Below, piece by piece: positions 1,794 to 34,668 of a stretch of DNA of 34,668 nt. Source of the DNA: Clostridiaceae bacterium (lineage in GTDB: Bacteria; Bacillota; Clostridia; DSM-8532); the NCBI GenBank assembly GCA_012518025.1, contig JAAYTP010000027.1:1-34668 (forward strand). Direction: 5' to 3'. How positions within the stretch are numbered: position 1 is the first letter of the stretch; each line of letters begins with the position of its first letter. A program made the translations under genes and the position numbers. The notes beneath the pieces were generated by a model. It was not told the DNA's origin and ran no database searches. It was given only the letters and a program-made list of their open reading frames with translations.

Positions 1794-1818
1794 ATACCAT
1801 GAAAAGGTGGTGAAGCTG

Positions 1819-3423
1819 GTGAAAGCAGCAGAAGCAATTGTTAAATTTCTGGTTGAAGAAGGTGTGGATACCGTATTCGGCTATCCCGGAGGATATATCG
1901 TTCATGTTTATGAAGCTCTGAGAAAATCCGGAATCAGGCATGTCCTTGTACGCCAGGAGTCGGCAGCCGCCCACAGTGCAAACGGTTACGCCAGGGTCTC
2001 CGGTAAAACAGGGGTATGCATCGCAACCTCCGGCCCCGGTGCAACCAATCTGATCACAGGAATAGCCACTGCCTATATGGATTCTATCCCGTTGGTGGTA
2101 TTGACAGGGCAGGTTCCCAGTTCCATGATCGGAAGGGACGTTTTTCAGGAAGCCGACATTACCGGAGCAACCGATTCCTTTACCAAGCACAATTACCTTG
2201 TGAAGGATGCGAGCCAGTTACCGCGTATTTTTCGCGAGGCTTTCCATATCGCATCAACCGGAAGGCCGGGTCCTGTACTCATCGACCTTCCTCACGATAT
2301 TCAGACTGAGGACATTCCCTATGATTACCCTGAAAGTGTTCAAATCAGCGGCTACAAGCCTACATTCAAGGGGCATATGGGGCAGATCAAACGGGCGCTG
2401 AAGGCCATTTCAGAAAGCGAGAGACCGCTGATCCTGGCCGGAGGCGGCGTGAATCTTTCCCACGCCCATGCTGAGCTATTGACTTTTTCAGAAAAATCGG
2501 GCATTCCTGTGGTTCATACCCTGATGGGGAAGGGGGCATTCCCGTCCAATCATCCTCATTATGCGGGCATGATAGGGACTCATGGCTTTTCATACGCCAA
2601 TGAGGCGGTCAGAAAAGCAGATCTTATGATTTTCATAGGAGCACGAATTGCAGACAGGACTGCCGGGGGAACACAGATACTTCCTGAAAACATGAGAATT
2701 GTCCATATCGACGTGGATCCTGCTGAGATCGGTAAAATTGTGGGAACCCACATACCCCTTGTCGGGGACGTGAGAGAGATCCTCAGACAGATGAATGAAA
2801 AAATCAAACGAAAGAATACCGATGCCTGGCTGGAAACACTGAAAGGCATGAGAACTGAAGAGTCCTACCTGACAGGTTCGCTGGTGAATCCCAAGAAGGC
2901 CATTCGCCTTTTGTCAGATAAGCTCAGCGACACTGCCATCATGGTGGCCGACGTGGGGCAGAACCAGTTCTGGGGTGCAAGGCATTTTGAAGACCTGCCG
3001 GGAAGAAAGTTCATGACATCGGGTGGTATGGGCACCATGGGCTATGGAATTCCTGCTGCGGTGGGTGCGAAGATTGCGGCACCCGACAGGCAAGTTGTGG
3101 CGGTTACTGGTGACGGAGGCTTTCAGATGAGCTTGTTCGAGCTGGGAACCATGGCTGCCAACCAAATAGACATCTTGATGATACTGTTCAATAATTCCAA
3201 TCTGGGCATGGTCAGAGAGATGCAGCACAGAATGTTTGGCAAAACCAGCCACACAGCCCTGGAAAGAAACCCTGATTTTGTCATGCTGGCCAAGGCCTAC
3301 GGCATAAATGGTGTGCGCGTTCATAAGGATGAGGAACTGGAATCAGCTTTTGATCAGGCATTGAGCCATAAGGGTCCCTTCCTTGTGGAATGCGTTGTGG
3401 ATCCTGACGAAAAAACATTGTAA
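1819..3423 (+). CDS. ilvB: Acetolactate synthase large (catalytic) subunit, copy 1
   Basis: ThDP-enzyme motifs: GYPGG, RQESAAAHSANGYAR (catalytic Glu), SGPGATNLITGIATAYMDSIP, GDGGFQMS...NN. ORF track starts at 1807; AAGGTGG at 1804-1810 favours GTG at 1819. Confidence 0.93.
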   Translation: MKAAEAIVKFLVEEGVDTVFGYPGGYIVHVYEALRKSGIRHVLVRQESAAAHSANGYARVSGKTGVCIATSGPGATNLITGIATAYMDSIPLVVLTGQVPSSMIGRDVFQEADITGATDSFTKHNYLVKDASQLPRIFREAFHIASTGRPGPVLIDLPHDIQTEDIPYDYPESVQISGYKPTFKGHMGQIKRALKAISESERPLILAGGGVNLSHAHAELLTFSEKSGIPVVHTLMGKGAFPSNHPHYAGMIGTHGFSYANEAVRKADLMIFIGARIADRTAGGTQILPENMRIVHIDVDPAEIGKIVGTHIPLVGDVREILRQMNEKIKRKNTDAWLETLKGMRTEESYLTGSLVNPKKAIRLLSDKLSDTAIMVADVGQNQFWGARHFEDLPGRKFMTSGGMGTMGYGIPAAVGAKIAAPDRQVVAVTGDGGFQMSLFELGTMAANQIDILMILFNNSNLGMVREMQHRMFGKTSHTALERNPDFVMLAKAYGINGVRVHKDEELESAFDQALSHKGPFLVECVVDPDEKTL

Positions 3424-11425: not shown

Positions 11426-13096
11426 ATGCAATTAACCGGTGCTGACATTCTGCTGGAATGTTTATTGGAACAGGGTGTAGACACCATTTTTGGGTTCCCG
11501 GGGGGAGCAGTATTAAATATCTATGATTCCCTGTATAAATATCGTGAAAAAATCAGGCATTATCTAACCTCCCACGAACAGGGTGCGGCTCATGCCGCAG
11601 ATGGTTATGCCCGGGTTACGGGAAAGGTAGGGGTGTGTCTTGCCACCTCAGGGCCTGGTGCCACCAATCTTGTGACAGGGATTGCCACTGCCTATATGGA
11701 CTCGGTACCCATAGTGGCCATAACAGGGAATGTATCCCTGAGCCTCCTCGGAAAGGACAGCTTTCAGGAAGTGGATATAACGGGCGTTACCATGCCCATC
11801 ACAAAGCATAATTTCATAGTAAAGGATGTCAATGATCTGGCTGACATTGTAAGGCGTGCCTTTTATATTGCCCAGGAGGGAAGACCGGGGCCTGTGCTGA
11901 TCGACATTCCGAAGGATATCACTGCGCAAAAGGCAGAGTATAAACCAGTTGAAAAGCCGGAGATTCCCAGGCGTACCGATAACATATCCGATAAGGCGAT
12001 TAATTATGCCGTGGAATTAATCAGGAACAGTTCAAAACCCCTTATATATGCCGGAGGAGGTGTGATAACCTCCGATGCGTCCCAGGAGCTTCTGGAGTTT
12101 GCAGAAAAGGTCAACGCACCTGTAACCCTCAGTCTGATGGGGATGGGGGGATTTCCTGCAACACATCCCAATTACACTGGTATGATAGGCATGCATGGAA
12201 CCAAGACATCCAATATGGCCGCCACCCAGTGCGATCTGCTCATAGCTGTAGGTGCCCGTTTCAGCGACCGTGTTGTGAGCAAGATGGAGCGCTTTGCGCC
12301 CCACGCACGGATTCTCCACATAGATATTGATGAGGCGGAGGTCAATAAGAATATCCGATCCAGCAGGTACATTATCGGGGATGTGCGTGAGGTGCTGCGC
12401 ACGCTGAATAATAGGATAGAAAGGGTTGAAAGAAAGGAATGGATGTCATTCGTTGAAGAAATGAAGGCACAGTATCCTTTAAGCTATACTGAAGACATCC
12501 TCACACCCCAGTATATTCTTGCGAAGATTTACGAACTGACTGGCGGGGATGCCATCATATCCACAGAGGTAGGTCAGCACCAAATCTGGACAGCCCAGCA
12601 CTATAAGTTTACCAAACCCAGAACCTTTGTTTCTTCCGGTGGCCTTGGAACCATGGGATTCGGCCTGGGAGCCTCTCTGGGAGCTCAAATCGGCGTCCCT
12701 GGCAAGCGGGTGTTCAATATCGCCGGCGACGGGAGTTTCAGGATGAATATGAACGAACTGGCTACGGCGGTGGAATACAATCTTCCAGTTATTGTGGTTA
12801 TCATGAACAATCATGCTCTGGGGATGGTGCGCCAGTGGCAGAATCTGTTCTACGACGGGCGCTACTCCCAGACCACACTGGACAGGAGCACTGATTTTGT
12901 AAAACTGGCTGAGGCATTCGGCGCCGTGGGATATAACTTAACCGAAAAGGCTGATGTGGAAGAAACCATTAAAAAGGCCATGGCACAGAACAGACCCGTG
13001 GTGATTAACTGTGAAATTGACAGGGATCTTAAGGTGTATCCCATAGTTCCTCCGGGAGCCCCCATTGAGGAAGTGATTATGGATATGGGTGATTGA
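11426..13096 (+). CDS. ilvB: Acetolactate synthase large subunit, copy 2
   Basis: GFPGGAVLNIYDSL, HEQGAAHAADGYARVTGKVGVCLATSGPGATNLVTG, GDGSFRMN...MNNHALGMVRQWQNLFYDGRYSQT; canonical AHAS catalytic subunit. Confidence 0.94.
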   Translation: MQLTGADILLECLLEQGVDTIFGFPGGAVLNIYDSLYKYREKIRHYLTSHEQGAAHAADGYARVTGKVGVCLATSGPGATNLVTGIATAYMDSVPIVAITGNVSLSLLGKDSFQEVDITGVTMPITKHNFIVKDVNDLADIVRRAFYIAQEGRPGPVLIDIPKDITAQKAEYKPVEKPEIPRRTDNISDKAINYAVELIRNSSKPLIYAGGGVITSDASQELLEFAEKVNAPVTLSLMGMGGFPATHPNYTGMIGMHGTKTSNMAATQCDLLIAVGARFSDRVVSKMERFAPHARILHIDIDEAEVNKNIRSSRYIIGDVREVLRTLNNRIERVERKEWMSFVEEMKAQYPLSYTEDILTPQYILAKIYELTGGDAIISTEVGQHQIWTAQHYKFTKPRTFVSSGGLGTMGFGLGASLGAQIGVPGKRVFNIAGDGSFRMNMNELATAVEYNLPVIVVIMNNHALGMVRQWQNLFYDGRYSQTTLDRSTDFVKLAEAFGAVGYNLTEKADVEETIKKAMAQNRPVVINCEIDRDLKVYPIVPPGAPIEEVIMDMGD

Positions 13097-18640: not shown

Positions 18641-19846
18641 TCATGCCTTGGAGTCGAAATAGCGGGTCAGCTGCTCAGCCAGGCTTCGGATAAAGTTCTG
18701 GCCTGCACTGGATGAGGTGGATTGGGTGAAGGCTACCAGAATGAAGGGGCGCTTGCAATAGATGATGCCCGCATCGTTATATACTCCCAGATGTGAATTG
18801 GTACCGGTTTTGTGAGCGATTTCATAATCCCGGTTTACCCTTGAAACTCCTGCAGGAATGCGTGTGCTGTAGATATTGCCTATGAGAGCCTTGTTCAATG
18901 TTTCCATATAGATGTCGTTTTCCCGGTTGATATAGATGTTGTAGAGGATCAGCCCGGTATCGCGGGGTGTAATCCGGGCACAGCGCTTGACAGTGCCATA
19001 CTTTTTCAGGTTGTTTTCCCTGCTGTAGCCTATCGCCCCCGACATCTCTCCATATATCCTGCTCTTATGTATTCCAAGGCGGTTCAGTACCTCATTGGAT
19101 TTCTGGTTCCCTATGAGCCTCAGGGCGGCATTGGAATAATTGTTGTCGCTATAGCTTATCATGTCCCTGATCATTCTAAGCAGCTTGAACCTTCTGCCTG
19201 TAACAGAATCATAATAGACTTCATCCACGTTTAACTCACCCCGGCGCATCATATCGCAGAGGATGTATCCCTGAAAAAGCTTGATGACAGAGGCGCTGTT
19301 GAAGTAGCCTTCCTCCATGTTATCATAGGGATCGATCCGGGTGAGGTTTTCATTAACACCGCATGAATAGTTGTTTACAAGATCCAGGACAAATACACCA
19401 TATACTGTTTTGATGCCCGAAGATCGCTCAGCCTGGTCTATGATCGCCAACACTTCGTTTTTAAACACTGTGTATTCCCAGATGCACATATCCGGAGAGG
19501 GGAAGCTGTCGGCAATGACTACCTGTTCCTCATCCTGGACTTCTTCCACAGACGTTTTGCCGTCATCATTTTGGGATGCTGGCGGATCATTCTCCTCCTG
19601 TTCTGAGGAGGATTCTTCCGGTAATGGCGACAACGCCCCGGCGACGGTTTTATCGGGCTGTTCCTCTGGTGCAGGGGATGCTGATTTATCCGATGGTGCC
19701 GGGTTTGCTTCCACATGAACCTGAGGGGTTGTTTCTGTGGTTTCCATAGTTGCTGGAACGGTATTCCAGGGAATGCCTGAACTTCCCGTTATGGGCAGAA
19801 CAATTAGAGTTAGGAGGATGATGACAAGGATGATTCTCGATGGCAT
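18641..19846 (-). CDS. Secreted or membrane-anchored serine hydrolase, class A beta-lactamase/PBP-like fold, second paralogue
   Basis: SVIK, SDNN and HKTGTN motifs; long near-identical blocks with 228-1442 (EGYFNSASVIKLFQGYIL, GEMSGAIGYS, KRCARITPRD); Ser/Glu/Pro-rich linker. Confidence 0.82.
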   Translation of the reverse strand: MPSRIILVIILLTLIVLPITGSSGIPWNTVPATMETTETTPQVHVEANPAPSDKSASPAPEEQPDKTVAGALSPLPEESSSEQEENDPPASQNDDGKTSVEEVQDEEQVVIADSFPSPDMCIWEYTVFKNEVLAIIDQAERSSGIKTVYGVFVLDLVNNYSCGVNENLTRIDPYDNMEEGYFNSASVIKLFQGYILCDMMRRGELNVDEVYYDSVTGRRFKLLRMIRDMISYSDNNYSNAALRLIGNQKSNEVLNRLGIHKSRIYGEMSGAIGYSRENNLKKYGTVKRCARITPRDTGLILYNIYINRENDIYMETLNKALIGNIYSTRIPAGVSRVNRDYEIAHKTGTNSHLGVYNDAGIIYCKRPFILVAFTQSTSSSAGQNFIRSLAEQLTRYFDSKA

Positions 19847-22148: not shown

Positions 22149-22252
22149 GATATTGTAATTTTTTGTGTATTATCCCTGTCGTAAATGATGTATCATAGTG
22201 GACAGGATGGCGGCAATTAAGACAACCTTTTTTGGGTGGAAAGGTGGAAACT

Positions 22253-24730
22253 ATGAAAAAGAGATGGCTGTATCTGTTATTTGTAACAGTGGCCATGCTG
22301 GCATTGAGTATTATTTCTATGGATGGCTCACTTCAGACCGCAGGTTTTTTTAATGGGTCCTACAGTCGGGACGTCCATATCGTCATAAACGAGGTCATGG
22401 CTGTTAATCATACCGGCATTACCGATGAGGATGGGGATAGAGGGGACTGGATTGAGCTCTACAATCCGGGAGTCATGCCTGTAAACCTGTCGGGTTACGG
22501 CTTGTCTGATAAGCAGGATATGCCCCATTTATGGGTCTTTCCCGATATAACAGTATTGCCCGGCGAATACTTGCTTGTATGGGCAGACGGGAAGGACAGG
22601 GTCTCCTATGCGGGACTTCATACAAATTTCAAAGTAAGTGCCGGCGAGGTTATCACTCTATCCAATCCATCAGGAACGCTTGTTGATTCCATTCATCTTA
22701 ACAGAATCATTCCCAATATCTCATATGGCAGACTCCCTGATGGAACCGGATATTCATTCCTTGCTGAGGGTACTCCCGGCAGAAGTAATTCTGATACCAT
22801 TTTGGATCCCACCCCATATTTTGCTCAGGTTTCACCTCCCGAGTTTTCCAGGGAAAGCGGTTTCTACGGCGAGGAATTCGAACTGGCTCTCAGCTGTGCT
22901 GATCCCGACGCAGTTATTCGTTATACCCTGGACGGGTCAGAACCTACCATCGACTCTCCTCTTTATGAGGAACCAATTGTTATCAGGTCGAGGGCGGGGG
23001 AACCAAACATTTATTCTTCAAAAACCGGGATTTCCCTTGATGACAGGCCGCCTTCTAAAGAAGTGTTCAAGGGCACAGTTGTAAGAGCAAGGGTATTTGA
23101 ATCAGATTTAATAATGAGTGATACCGTAACCCACACCTATTTTGTTGAAGAGAACATGGCAGAGCGCTATAAGCTTCCCATTATCTCCCTTGTGACGAAC
23201 CCGGAGAACCTGTTTGACTACTTCACGGGCATCTTTATGAAGGGCAAGGTAATGAGCGACTGGCTAAGCGAGAACCCTGGGACAGTAGTGGATGGCGGTA
23301 CACCCGGCAACTACAACCAACGGGGTATAGAATGGGAAAGGGAAGCGACCATCACCTTCTTTGAACCTGATGGAACCGTGGGATTTACCCAGAATGTGGG
23401 AATTCGCACCTTCGGTGGATGGAGCCGATCATATCGGCATAAGCCTCTGCGTGTGGTAGCCCGCAAACGATATGACCAGTCCGGGACCATTGAATACCCT
23501 GTTTTCCCCGAACTGACCAAGAGAGGAAATCCCGAAGAACCCTTAACCTCTTTCAAACAGCTTCTGCTTAGAAGCTCGGGGAATGACTGGGAATACACCC
23601 TGTTCAGGGATGCCATGATGCAAAGCCTTGTTGCCGGATTAGGTGTGGATACTCAGAGCTACAAACCCTGTATCCTGTTTATCAACGGGGAATTCTGGGG
23701 GATTTACAATATCCGCGAAACTTTTGATGAATACTTTATCAACACTAATTACAACGTGGAATTTGATGATATAGTAATTTTAGAGGGTGTTTCCTATGAA
23801 GATGGGATGGGGCTGTATTACGGACAGGAAGGGGATGTGGAAAGCTTCCACAGCATCATCGATTTTGTAAGAACACACGATATGTCCATTCAGGAGAACT
23901 ACGAATATGTTGTTGATCAGATAGATGTGGACAACTTTATTGTTTACCATGCGGCTCAGATTTATTATGCCAACACCGACTGGCCCGGGAACAATGTAAA
24001 GGTATGGAGGAAGCGCACCGAAAAGATAGAGCCGGATGCCCCTCCGGGACACGACGGACGCTGGCGGTGGCTGCTCTTTGATACCGACTTTGGTTTTGGA
24101 TTATACGGTATACACTCCACGGTAAGCCATAGGACTCTGGAGTTTGCCACCACACCCAACGGCGAACCCTGGCCAAACCCCGACTGGTCTACCGTACTGC
24201 TTCGCTCCCTCTTGACCAATGATGAGTTTAAAGCAAAGTTTATAGCAAAATTTGTGGACCTTTTGAACAGCAGATTCCATGCCGATTATGTCACAAAGCG
24301 CATAGTGGAAATGCGTGATGTGATTGCGCCCGTCATGCAGGAGCATCTGGATCGCTGGATGATCAACAATGCGAGCATGGATGCATGGAAAGCACAGACC
24401 AATGCCCTGATTAGTTTCGGGTTGGACAGGGTGAGGTTTATAACCCGCGATCTTAGAGATTATTTCGGTCTGGAACGGTACAAGATCTCACTGGAGGCCT
24501 CAGATCCCTCAGGAGGCACGATCAAGCTGAATGATATGGATATAGACATTAAAGGCTCCAGGTGGAATGGAGTCATTATGGAGGATATTCCGGTAACCCT
24601 GGAGGCCGCTCCCGGGGCAGGATACAGATTCGCTGGCTGGGAAACCAATGTGGGCTACTTTGAAGATCCGGCTATCACCCTGGTTCCCAAAACCTATCTG
24701 GAGATTCGTGCGGTTTTCGTAAGAGAATGA
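22253..24730 (+). CDS. Secreted CotH-family protein with lamin-tail domain, chitobiase/FN3-like domain and C-terminal InlB-type repeat
   Basis: Signal peptide MKKRWLYLLFVTVAMLALSIISM; LTD-like INEVMAVN...DWIELYNPG...LSGYGLSD; AVIRYTLDGSEPT...; CotH-type FINGEFWGIYNIRETFDEYF and RWRWLLFDTDFGFGL; C-terminal GYRFAGWETNVG. Start moved from 22232 to ATG 22253 (SD GGTGG). Confidence 0.85.
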   Translation: MKKRWLYLLFVTVAMLALSIISMDGSLQTAGFFNGSYSRDVHIVINEVMAVNHTGITDEDGDRGDWIELYNPGVMPVNLSGYGLSDKQDMPHLWVFPDITVLPGEYLLVWADGKDRVSYAGLHTNFKVSAGEVITLSNPSGTLVDSIHLNRIIPNISYGRLPDGTGYSFLAEGTPGRSNSDTILDPTPYFAQVSPPEFSRESGFYGEEFELALSCADPDAVIRYTLDGSEPTIDSPLYEEPIVIRSRAGEPNIYSSKTGISLDDRPPSKEVFKGTVVRARVFESDLIMSDTVTHTYFVEENMAERYKLPIISLVTNPENLFDYFTGIFMKGKVMSDWLSENPGTVVDGGTPGNYNQRGIEWEREATITFFEPDGTVGFTQNVGIRTFGGWSRSYRHKPLRVVARKRYDQSGTIEYPVFPELTKRGNPEEPLTSFKQLLLRSSGNDWEYTLFRDAMMQSLVAGLGVDTQSYKPCILFINGEFWGIYNIRETFDEYFINTNYNVEFDDIVILEGVSYEDGMGLYYGQEGDVESFHSIIDFVRTHDMSIQENYEYVVDQIDVDNFIVYHAAQIYYANTDWPGNNVKVWRKRTEKIEPDAPPGHDGRWRWLLFDTDFGFGLYGIHSTVSHRTLEFATTPNGEPWPNPDWSTVLLRSLLTNDEFKAKFIAKFVDLLNSRFHADYVTKRIVEMRDVIAPVMQEHLDRWMINNASMDAWKAQTNALISFGLDRVRFITRDLRDYFGLERYKISLEASDPSGGTIKLNDMDIDIKGSRWNGVIMEDIPVTLEAAPGAGYRFAGWETNVGYFEDPAITLVPKTYLEIRAVFVRE

Positions 24731-24780
24731 TTACCTAGTGACACAAGGAAGGTGCGCCCCGCTATAATGACGCCTCTATA

Positions 24781-25114
24781 TGTCATTGCGAAAAGGCCTT
24801 TCATGTCTGTCATTGTGAGAAGTCCTTTTCCGTCTGTCATTGCGAGAAGCCCTTTCCCGTCTGTCATTGCGAGGAGGCAAAGCCGACGAAGCAATCTTAT
24901 AGATCGCCGCGCTCCACTTCGTTCGCTCGCGATGACATGCTCGGAGATCTTTCCTGTCTGTCATTGCGAGGAGGCAAAGCCGACGAAGCAATCTTATAGA
25001 TCGCCGCGCTCCGCTGCGCTTTGCTCGCGATGACATACTGATGTCTCGCAGACGTACGGCACGGCTACCGTATGAGGATTGCCGCACTTCGCTGGCGCTT
25101 CGTTCGCAATGACA
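24781..25114. repeat. Cluster of TGTCATTGCGAG...CTCGCGATGACA palindromic elements: three truncated 27-bp units, two full copies (76/77 bp) and one degenerate half copy
   Basis: 27-bp units at 24781, 24808 and 24835; full copies 24862-24937 and 24959-25035 with inverted termini; half copy ~25075-25114 ending TTCGTTCGCAATGACA. Confidence 0.9.
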
Positions 25115-31755: not shown

Positions 31756-33087
31756 ATGCAAAATAAGATAAAAAGAATTCTTATCAGGCTTGAGTCCCTC
31801 ATGGTATTCAGAGACCTGCTAAAGGACGAAGTTGTCAAAAAATTTATTCAATTACTTGAAACCTGTGATAAAAAGCAGAGTTCCAAGGAATTTGTCAGTC
31901 GTTATTCGGATTTTCTCCACCATCTGGTGGAGCATAACATGATGCTCAAACTATCCGAAGTCTGTTCATTTGGTGATTATTTGATCCATGCCATTCTATA
32001 CCGTGAAAATTCAGTAAGCAAAATGGCGGAACAGGTAAGTCCCGGGCAGCTTCCGGATTGGATGCCCCGTGAATTGACAAAGGAACTCAATATTCTAGGG
32101 GAGCTGGCAGCCCTTTCTTCCCCCAGGATCAAATCCGAATGGTTCCACAACCATGAGCCTGAAGAAATCATCAGTGACCTGCCCGAATGGGAGGCCTTCC
32201 CTAAAATGTACAGCATTTTTGAGCCTGATAAGCCCTGGGGCGAAGGCTCAGCCCGTTTGCTTGATTTCTACAGCAAGTATGGGTCGGGTATCTTTGCCCG
32301 TTATAAGGGGTTTATATGGGAACGTAGCGGTGATCAGGGAAGCCTTCGTGGCGTGGATGATCCCGACCCGGTCAGACTGAGTGATTTTATAGGTTATAAG
32401 CTGCAAAGAAATGAGATTGTGGAGAACACCCTTCGGTTTATTAAGGGCTACCCGGCAAACAACCTGCTACTTTACGGAGACCGGGGCACTGGTAAATCCT
32501 CAACGGTTAAGGCACTCCTAAACGAATATTATGATCTCGGCCTTCGCATTATTGAAATACCCAAGGAGTTTTTGGCTGATTTCGGTCAAATCCTGAGGAT
32601 GATCCGGAACAGGCCTCAAAAGTTTATTGCTTTTATAGATGATCTTTCCTTCAGTGATGAAGAGAGCAGTTATACCGCGCTAAAAGCGGTTCTTGAGGGA
32701 AGTCTTGAGAACCGGCCTGAAAATCTTCTTGTATATGCAACTACCAACAGAAGGCACCTTATAAAGGAGAGGTTCAGTGACAGAGCTGGGCTCGCATCTG
32801 GTCAGGCTGATGATGAGATCCATGCGGCGGACACCATGGAAGAAAAACTGTCCCTGGCCGACCGCTTTGGCATGACCATCACCTTTACAGCTCCGGATCA
32901 GGAAGAGTACCTTACAATTGTGGAAGGACTGGCAGATAAACGAGGTATCAGGATTGATAAGGACGTACTGCACAAGAAGGCTATACAATGGGAGATGCTG
33001 TACAACGGGCGTTCTCCAAGGACGGCATTGCAGTTCATCAACTGGCTGGAAGGTCAACAAAAAATGAACAGGGAATCAGGAGGCTAG
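31756..33087 (+). CDS. DUF815-like AAA ATPase
   Basis: Walker A GDRGTGKSST, Walker B KFIAFIDDLSF, ATTNRRHLIKERF, C-terminal NGRSPRTALQFINWLEG; N-terminal helical region typical of DUF815 ATPases. Confidence 0.85.
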   Translation: MQNKIKRILIRLESLMVFRDLLKDEVVKKFIQLLETCDKKQSSKEFVSRYSDFLHHLVEHNMMLKLSEVCSFGDYLIHAILYRENSVSKMAEQVSPGQLPDWMPRELTKELNILGELAALSSPRIKSEWFHNHEPEEIISDLPEWEAFPKMYSIFEPDKPWGEGSARLLDFYSKYGSGIFARYKGFIWERSGDQGSLRGVDDPDPVRLSDFIGYKLQRNEIVENTLRFIKGYPANNLLLYGDRGTGKSSTVKALLNEYYDLGLRIIEIPKEFLADFGQILRMIRNRPQKFIAFIDDLSFSDEESSYTALKAVLEGSLENRPENLLVYATTNRRHLIKERFSDRAGLASGQADDEIHAADTMEEKLSLADRFGMTITFTAPDQEEYLTIVEGLADKRGIRIDKDVLHKKAIQWEMLYNGRSPRTALQFINWLEGQQKMNRESGG

Positions 33088-33088
33088 G

Positions 33089-34668
33089 ATGATGGTCAGA
33101 TTAGGCAAAGTATTCATACTGACTGTTGTCTGCGTCCTGGTCTCGGGTATTCTATTCAGCAGTCAGGTAGCGGATGAGCAGGTTGTCAATGCCAGCATCA
33201 CATCTTTCAGCGAATATATGCCAGGAGGTAAAACTGCTGATTCAGTGTTAATTGAAATGGCTGCGGCAGGGCATGAATATCAGCCGGATGAAATTTTCGG
33301 GGCTGAATTTGGGACTGCCGGGTTTATTGGAGAAACGGAAAGAGGCCCTGAGACACCACAGCTTGTGACTAGTTTTGAAGAGTATGCAAGAATCTACGGC
33401 AGCCACCCCGGAAGGTCCTTTATGCCATACGAGGTAAAAGGCTATTTTGATAATGGCGGACGACGACTCTATATAGCCCGGGTTATATCTCAAACCGCCG
33501 AGACAGCCCAGGCCGGACTTAAAAGAGGGAAGAAAAACGCCTGCACAGTGCGCGCAATCAATGCCGGGGAATGGGGAAACCGGGTTGCGGTGAAGGTCCT
33601 TCAGGGTATGAATTCTACAGAATCGGATCCCACCTTCACATTGGAGGTATTATGCTTTACACGTAATAAATTCATCTCTATGAAATCCAACAAGCCTGAT
33701 CCTGCCCTTGCCGATATAATTGAGGTCTACAACGATGTTTCGTTAATTGAAGGGTCTCCATATTACTATGAGAACGTTATCAACCAAAATTCGGCATTGA
33801 TAAGGATGGATATTGCGGAAGATAATGATGGCAGCATAATACCCGATGCCGCCGATAAACCTATCTGGCTTTCAGGAGGTTCGGATGGTGATGTGCCGGT
33901 TCTGGAAGACTTTTTAGGAAGTGATGGGCTGGACTTAAATGCTGCAACCGGTCTTAAGGCTCTTGAAAAGATAAGTACTGTTTCCACTCTTTATTCTCCC
34001 GTATCCTGCCAGTATGATGGACTGGATCAGGCTTTGATACAGCAATGCGAAGCTCTGGGTGACAGAACAGTCATTCTGGATACGGCATTTGACGATCCTC
34101 ATCCCACCCCCTGGAGCTGCCTGATAAGTAGCTATGTATCATGCTATTCACCATGGATACAGATTACTGGGCCTGACTCAAAGGATATCATGGTTCCGCC
34201 CGGAGGATTCATTGCGGGTCTTTACGCCAGGAACGACTATGTTAAAGGACCCGACAAGTTACCGGTCAATGAAGTCCTGGTGGGTGTAACCGGAGTGGAG
34301 ATTCAGCTTTCGCCCCAGGCCAGAAAAGCCTTATCCATCAGAAGGATAAACCCCATCACAGAGATTCCGGGCATTGGTTACGTCGTGGATGAGTTCATGA
34401 CATTGTCGGATTTAGCTGACGATTATGGATCGCTCAGTTTCAGGCGCTATATTAATTTCATTAGGGATTCCATAAGCACCAGTCTGTTTTGGGTATCCGG
34501 CCAGGAATGGACACAGGATCTTCAAAGCACAATAAAGCTCAGCATAGAGGATTTCCTGGACAGGGAGTGGAAACGCGGGGCGCTTCTGGGAAGCACCCAG
34601 ATAGAAGCCTATTATGTCAAGGTTGATCCTCAGCAAACAGCAGACAGGGAGGGTCTTCGGCCTTCTGT
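33089..34668 (+). CDS. Contractile phage-tail/CIS sheath protein with N-terminal signal-peptide/TM-like segment (3' end beyond window)
   Basis: Open frame from ATG 33089 to the window end, behind AGGAGG (33078-33083). N-terminus MMVRLGKVFILTVVCVLVSGILFSSQVADEQ; sheath-type GTAGFIGETERGPETPQLVTSFEEYARIYG, LSGGSDGDVP, VPPGGFIAGLYARNDYVKGPDKLPVNEVLVGVTGVEIQLS, FRRYINFIRDSISTSLFWVSGQEWTQDL...FLDREWKRGALLGSTQIEAYYVKVD. Absent from the ORF track because it has no stop in the window. Confidence 0.88.
   Translation, partial: MMVRLGKVFILTVVCVLVSGILFSSQVADEQVVNASITSFSEYMPGGKTADSVLIEMAAAGHEYQPDEIFGAEFGTAGFIGETERGPETPQLVTSFEEYARIYGSHPGRSFMPYEVKGYFDNGGRRLYIARVISQTAETAQAGLKRGKKNACTVRAINAGEWGNRVAVKVLQGMNSTESDPTFTLEVLCFTRNKFISMKSNKPDPALADIIEVYNDVSLIEGSPYYYENVINQNSALIRMDIAEDNDGSIIPDAADKPIWLSGGSDGDVPVLEDFLGSDGLDLNAATGLKALEKISTVSTLYSPVSCQYDGLDQALIQQCEALGDRTVILDTAFDDPHPTPWSCLISSYVSCYSPWIQITGPDSKDIMVPPGGFIAGLYARNDYVKGPDKLPVNEVLVGVTGVEIQLSPQARKALSIRRINPITEIPGIGYVVDEFMTLSDLADDYGSLSFRRYINFIRDSISTSLFWVSGQEWTQDLQSTIKLSIEDFLDREWKRGALLGSTQIEAYYVKVDPQQTADREGLRPS

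Follow-up and report, generated by a model that had tools for sequence, protein, structure and literature searches.

Contractile tail sheaths are, to our knowledge, described only as cytoplasmic or as working within released particles. Phage tail sheaths (T4 gp18, PHROG 23) are encoded in tail operons, and the closest sequence match to the protein described here, the haloarchaeal sheath 9ezm of Halogeometricum borinquense, belongs to a full contractile machine. Contractile injection systems (CIS) linked to membranes do exist, including the thylakoid CIS of Anabaena (PMC8894136) and the S. coelicolor CIS with its membrane protein CisA (PMC12237407). In the known membrane-linked systems the sheath stays in the cytoplasm and a different component provides the anchor; in the Anabaena system the anchor sits in the baseplate rather than the sheath. 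In the literature that we searched, which left out most subscription papers and preprints, no exported or orphan sheath was described.

Here we analysed a 34,668-nucleotide stretch of DNA (the window), which is the whole of contig C159 of a clostridial genome (G000; 2.0 Mb, 164 contigs, 99% complete). At its right end, a frame open from 33089 to 34668 encodes 526 residues and runs off the contig; compared with congeners G030 and G031, the window copy lacks about 20 residues of the sheath C-terminus, and no continuation of the contig past the gene was found in its own genome. An earlier note, made without database searches, had read this frame as a contractile-tail sheath homologue carrying a signal-peptide- or membrane-like N-terminus. 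Its frame, its sheath motifs and the AGGAGG at 33078-33083 (+ strand) held when the sequence was re-read; its start, placed at the first ATG (33089, at 5 nt spacing), was revised. All orthologues align to the second ATG, 33092 (MVRLGK...), which is therefore the likelier start, 8 nt after the Shine-Dalgarno sequence as in G030 and G031, and we place the gene for the putative exported orphan sheath at 33092..34668 (+ strand; truncated on its 3' side where the contig stops), with 33089 as the alternative. An internal start past the anchor, at a conserved methionine near residue 43, was ruled out, as no Shine-Dalgarno sequence lies at the right spacing in the window. The roughly 60 extra residues that the earlier note counted before the sheath were also an overstatement: a canonical sheath begins about 20 to 25 residues before the core, so the real extension is about 40 residues.

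The protein belongs to the tail-sheath family by both fold and homology. The best match in a phmmer search of the PDB was the solved sheath 9ezm (E = 1.1e-56), and the protein matched the PHROG tail sheath family at 1.1e-26. Pfam Phage_sheath_1 scored 8.9e-5 on the window protein, below its curated cut-off; for Phage_sheath_1 and Phage_sheath_1C, proteins P0001 and P0002 fall under the curated cut-offs and their relatives P0004 and P0005 over them. An AlphaFold2 model, built with window and viral-contig sequences as input, had a pLDDT of 80.9 and a pTM of 0.80. It was confident from about residue 68; the very low confidence for residues 1-63 is what an export segment with its linker should give. 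Foldseek searches with this model returned only sheaths as top PDB matches, 9ezm again first (2.1e-39, TMq 0.72). We delimit the sheath core, on sequence search, model and Foldseek together, as residues 69-526 (33293..34666, + strand). The 9ezm sheath shares the common sheath fold but lacks an N-terminal export segment, and phage tail sheaths share the fold and the C-terminal domain but resemble the window protein only weakly (<30% identity).

The N-terminus has the features of a genuine export segment. Residues 8-23 (33110..33157, + strand) form the predicted hydrophobic core of a signal-anchor or signal peptide, with a Kyte-Doolittle 19-residue mean of 2.48; two basic and no acidic residues precede this core, and the net charge after it is -2. 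By the same measure, cytosolic enzymes encoded in the window do not exceed 1.04, and its membrane or secreted proteins score 2.02-3.05. After the core comes a linker predicted to be disordered (33158..33292, + strand; pLDDT mostly <40). It takes the place of most of the canonical N-terminal arm (YLSPGVYVEE), which is degraded in the window genus (g1). Codons 1-30 are under purifying selection, with mainly synonymous changes (dN/dS 0.17-0.42, against 0.05-0.16 in the sheath core).

Such a segment is present in nine genomes besides G000. The sheaths of congeners G029, G030 and G031 (74-90% identity) begin in the same way as the window copy, and in both the sister-genus sheath of G003 (36% identity) and that of G021, from a further genus, a basic stretch precedes a hydrophobic run (2.85 and 2.54, respectively). 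A class-level search of 391 genomes added G362, G243, G345 and G262, all from genus g95 of another clostridial family, in which the sheaths carry cleavable-looking signal peptides. Plausible signal-peptidase sites are seen there (VNA|AD, VYG|EE), and G345, the weakest exported form by hydropathy (1.67), carries a signal peptide of textbook form, MKNCRINYMALVIAVSFAFGQVPVNA|AD. No clear site was found in the g1 anchor, so topology may differ between the anchored g1 form and the g95 form. Among 80 viral-contig sheath ORFs (about ten without a true start) there was no export segment (maximum hydropathy 1.52), and there was none among the canonical CIS and phage sheaths of genomes (maximum 1.57). 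A phylum-wide draw of 398 genomes gave no further exported sheaths, and a scan of genome contigs returned a single relative, G029, in pieces. That the N-terminus is a real and conserved export segment, with a basic n-region and a hydrophobic h-region, is thus well supported in silico, on hydropathy, charge pattern and (-3,-1) residues and without experiment. The export- or membrane-like N-terminus claimed in the earlier note held on these same grounds and passed the proposed check of conservation in orthologues; its sheath-fold claim held as well, since sequence and structure searches both returned sheaths.

To place the gene in its setting, we compared the loci of its carriers. In the window genus, flotillin/NfeD genes are followed by a DUF815 AAA ATPase (31756..33087 in the window, + strand, directly upstream of the sheath and syntenic within the genus), the sheath, a LysM protein and an acyltransferase; G030 has an extra reverse-strand gene in this neighbourhood. 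A fifth congener, G028, has the syntenic locus with DUF815 and with the sheath cleanly absent, which makes the sheath an accessory gene. The ATPase was considered as a dedicated, eCIS- or ClpV-like partner and set aside: DUF815 occurs in 22/32 genomes of the family, mostly without a sheath, so a dedicated partnership is improbable. The interval between DUF815 and the LysM gene is a variable slot, since in some congeners it holds, on the opposite strand, a protein of 842-847 residues with a membrane-like N-terminus (L222:8881-11424 in G028, L017:7265-9793 in G030). No gene neighbourhood that would point to function is conserved across the carrier lineages.

The sheath gene also appears to stand apart from any phage or CIS cluster. 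In G030, G031, G021, G362 and G243, no CIS genes lie beside it and the flanks are unrelated housekeeping genes; the G000 and G003 loci are cut off by a contig edge. We searched for the tube family PF06841 (Phage_T4_gp19) and the baseplate wedge family PF04965 (GPW_gp25), core eCIS domains (PMC8213781). Neither was detected in any of the ten carrier genomes, and both were detected in the two positive controls, G022 and G223, which are relatives possessing genuine eCIS loci. Most carriers are fragmented metagenome-assembled genomes, and the g95 genomes, 71-97% complete, leave gaps in which a CIS might lie; with this reservation, the solitary state of the gene is well supported in silico. Most other sheath loci examined at class and phylum level proved to be canonical clusters of CIS or phage genes, in which the sheath adjoins tube genes and starts MPEYLSPGVYVEE or similarly. 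An exception is a solitary homologue of 390 residues in G748 (L133:8180-9352), without an export segment, flanked by cysteine synthase-like and macrodomain-like genes and with no CIS cluster in 18 kb. In G020, a truncated remnant of a G021-type exported sheath (L075:436-961) indicates that the gene can decay.

A maximum-likelihood tree placed the exported sheaths from the window genus, G003 and g95 in one clade of six rows (SH-aLRT 100), which joined the eCIS sheaths of G499, G586 and G774 with a support of 88. These three Firmicutes loci (L116, L117 and L118) each carry two adjacent sheath genes and hold the nearest canonical relatives of the exported sheaths. Together with the Streptomyces CISSc sheath (8bky/8bl4), their sheaths are homologous to the exported ones over the core and form their sister group; unlike the exported sheaths, they start MPEYLSPGVYVEE, adjoin tube genes and are cytoplasmic. 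The exported sheath of G021 grouped with a different eCIS group (support 87). Forcing all seven exported rows together cost 21 log-likelihood units (AU p = 0.049), and a single origin is rejected only marginally, given the long branches. The tree shows that the exported forms derive from eCIS sheaths, with at least one origin certain; two origins are probable without being assured.

We then assessed how much of a working sheath remains, using 194 positions conserved across 20 canonical CIS sheath sequences. The N-terminal core positions are kept in all exported forms, as is the insertion domain except in G021, where the domain is absent and a linker of about 100 residues lies between membrane segment and core. 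In the window genus, 45-47 of 80 C-terminal core positions are kept, against 55-74 in contractile phage sheaths, as are 5-7 of 14 N-terminal arm positions. The C-terminal arm survives in part (5-10/13); G003 and G021 retain both arms, and conservation in G003, G362 and G021 is inside the phage range. Loss of CIS-invariant residues was therefore rejected as a mark of all exported forms, since against the phage baseline only the window genus lies outside the normal range. Because many such positions are lost in g1, polymerisation there should not be assumed, and because arm and core residues are among them, a contractile device in the window genus is unlikely.

The most probable reading, on in silico evidence only, is a domesticated, tubeless sheath that works outside the cytoplasmic membrane and has ceased to belong to an injection machine; its localisation, polymerisation and contraction are at most inferred. 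In this view, an eCIS-type sheath would have been captured as a single host gene and have gained an N-terminal signal-anchor (window genus, G003, G021) or a cleavable-looking signal peptide (g95). Export would be Sec-dependent. Judging from charge pattern and signal type, the sheath would be inserted N-in/C-out, or secreted in g95, and the flexible linker may tether the core on the outer membrane face. There it would have a structural or binding function in the envelope, the role that we favour, and it may still multimerise through the partly kept C-terminal arm without driving a tube. In silico, the gene is shown to be maintained vertically under purifying selection, with a clean absence in one congener. 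The earlier note had left open a sheath tethered to or exported across the membrane and a sheath-fold protein repurposed at the envelope; the absence of a CIS cluster, tube and gp25 supports the latter. A working contractile machine tethered to the membrane is disfavoured.

Such a machine, T6SS-like or thylakoid-CIS-like, with its other genes on other contigs, would be compatible with a window contig that ends inside the sheath gene, and the membrane-linked CIS cited above are precedents. However, intact relatives show a LysM protein and an acyltransferase after the sheath rather than CIS genes, and tube and gp25 went undetected genome-wide in ten carriers while the controls were detected. The Anabaena system likewise links a sheath homologue to a membrane, but as a complete CIS rather than an orphan. 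We regard this explanation as very unlikely. It is also unlikely, though less so, that the gene is a cytosolic remnant or a decaying prophage or CIS gene whose hydrophobic N-terminus is a chance, functionless fusion. The truncated copy in G020 shows that decay occurs, and contractile-signature positions are eroded in g1; against this, the gene is full-length in several species, both its core and codons 1-30 are constrained, its Shine-Dalgarno sequence is conserved, and export segments occur in two unrelated families.

It remains possible, with no image or oligomer data, that the protein still self-assembles without a tube into an anchored, tubular polysheath and so forms an appendage of the cell surface. 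T4 gp18 by itself forms polysheaths (PMC3004832), so by analogy a tubeless sheath could polymerise, and the C-terminal arm is partly kept, with both arms kept in G003 and G021; the degraded N-terminal arm and C-terminal core signature in g1 speak against it. The bolder version, in which the tubeless sheath is a spring-like or tubular polymer, anchored or secreted, on the outer membrane face, we consider improbable. A place in the envelope of the spore or forespore, in the coat or the intermembrane space, has no direct evidence and is unlikely; the earlier note had raised the spore envelope. The carriers are Clostridia, the window holds a CotH-family gene, and a SafA-like LysM protein lies downstream of the sheath in congeners, but the LysM matches are generic and one further lineage has no such neighbours.

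A conserved, exported and tubeless family would demonstrate that the sheath fold is able to function alone outside the membrane, and would offer a simple single-gene system for asking what a sheath does without a tube. Such a family also cautions that CIS surveys keyed only to the sheath can mistake orphan exported genes for injection systems. Were the less likely polymer reading true, the Gram-positive envelope would gain a new class of structure, built from one domesticated phage-tail part and arising independently in two clostridial lineages.

Elsewhere in the window, two related secreted serine hydrolases of the beta-lactamase family (PF13354) are encoded on opposite strands at 228-1442 and 18641-19846, and two acetolactate synthase large-subunit-like genes (1807-3423 and 11426-13096) bound one ilv-leu gene cluster. 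The CotH kinase protein at 22232-24730 has lamin-tail and chitobiase-like domains and a signal-like N-terminus. Just after it, a short ORF of near-identical repeats (SPFPSVIAR) at 24752-25033 is probably a non-coding repeat.
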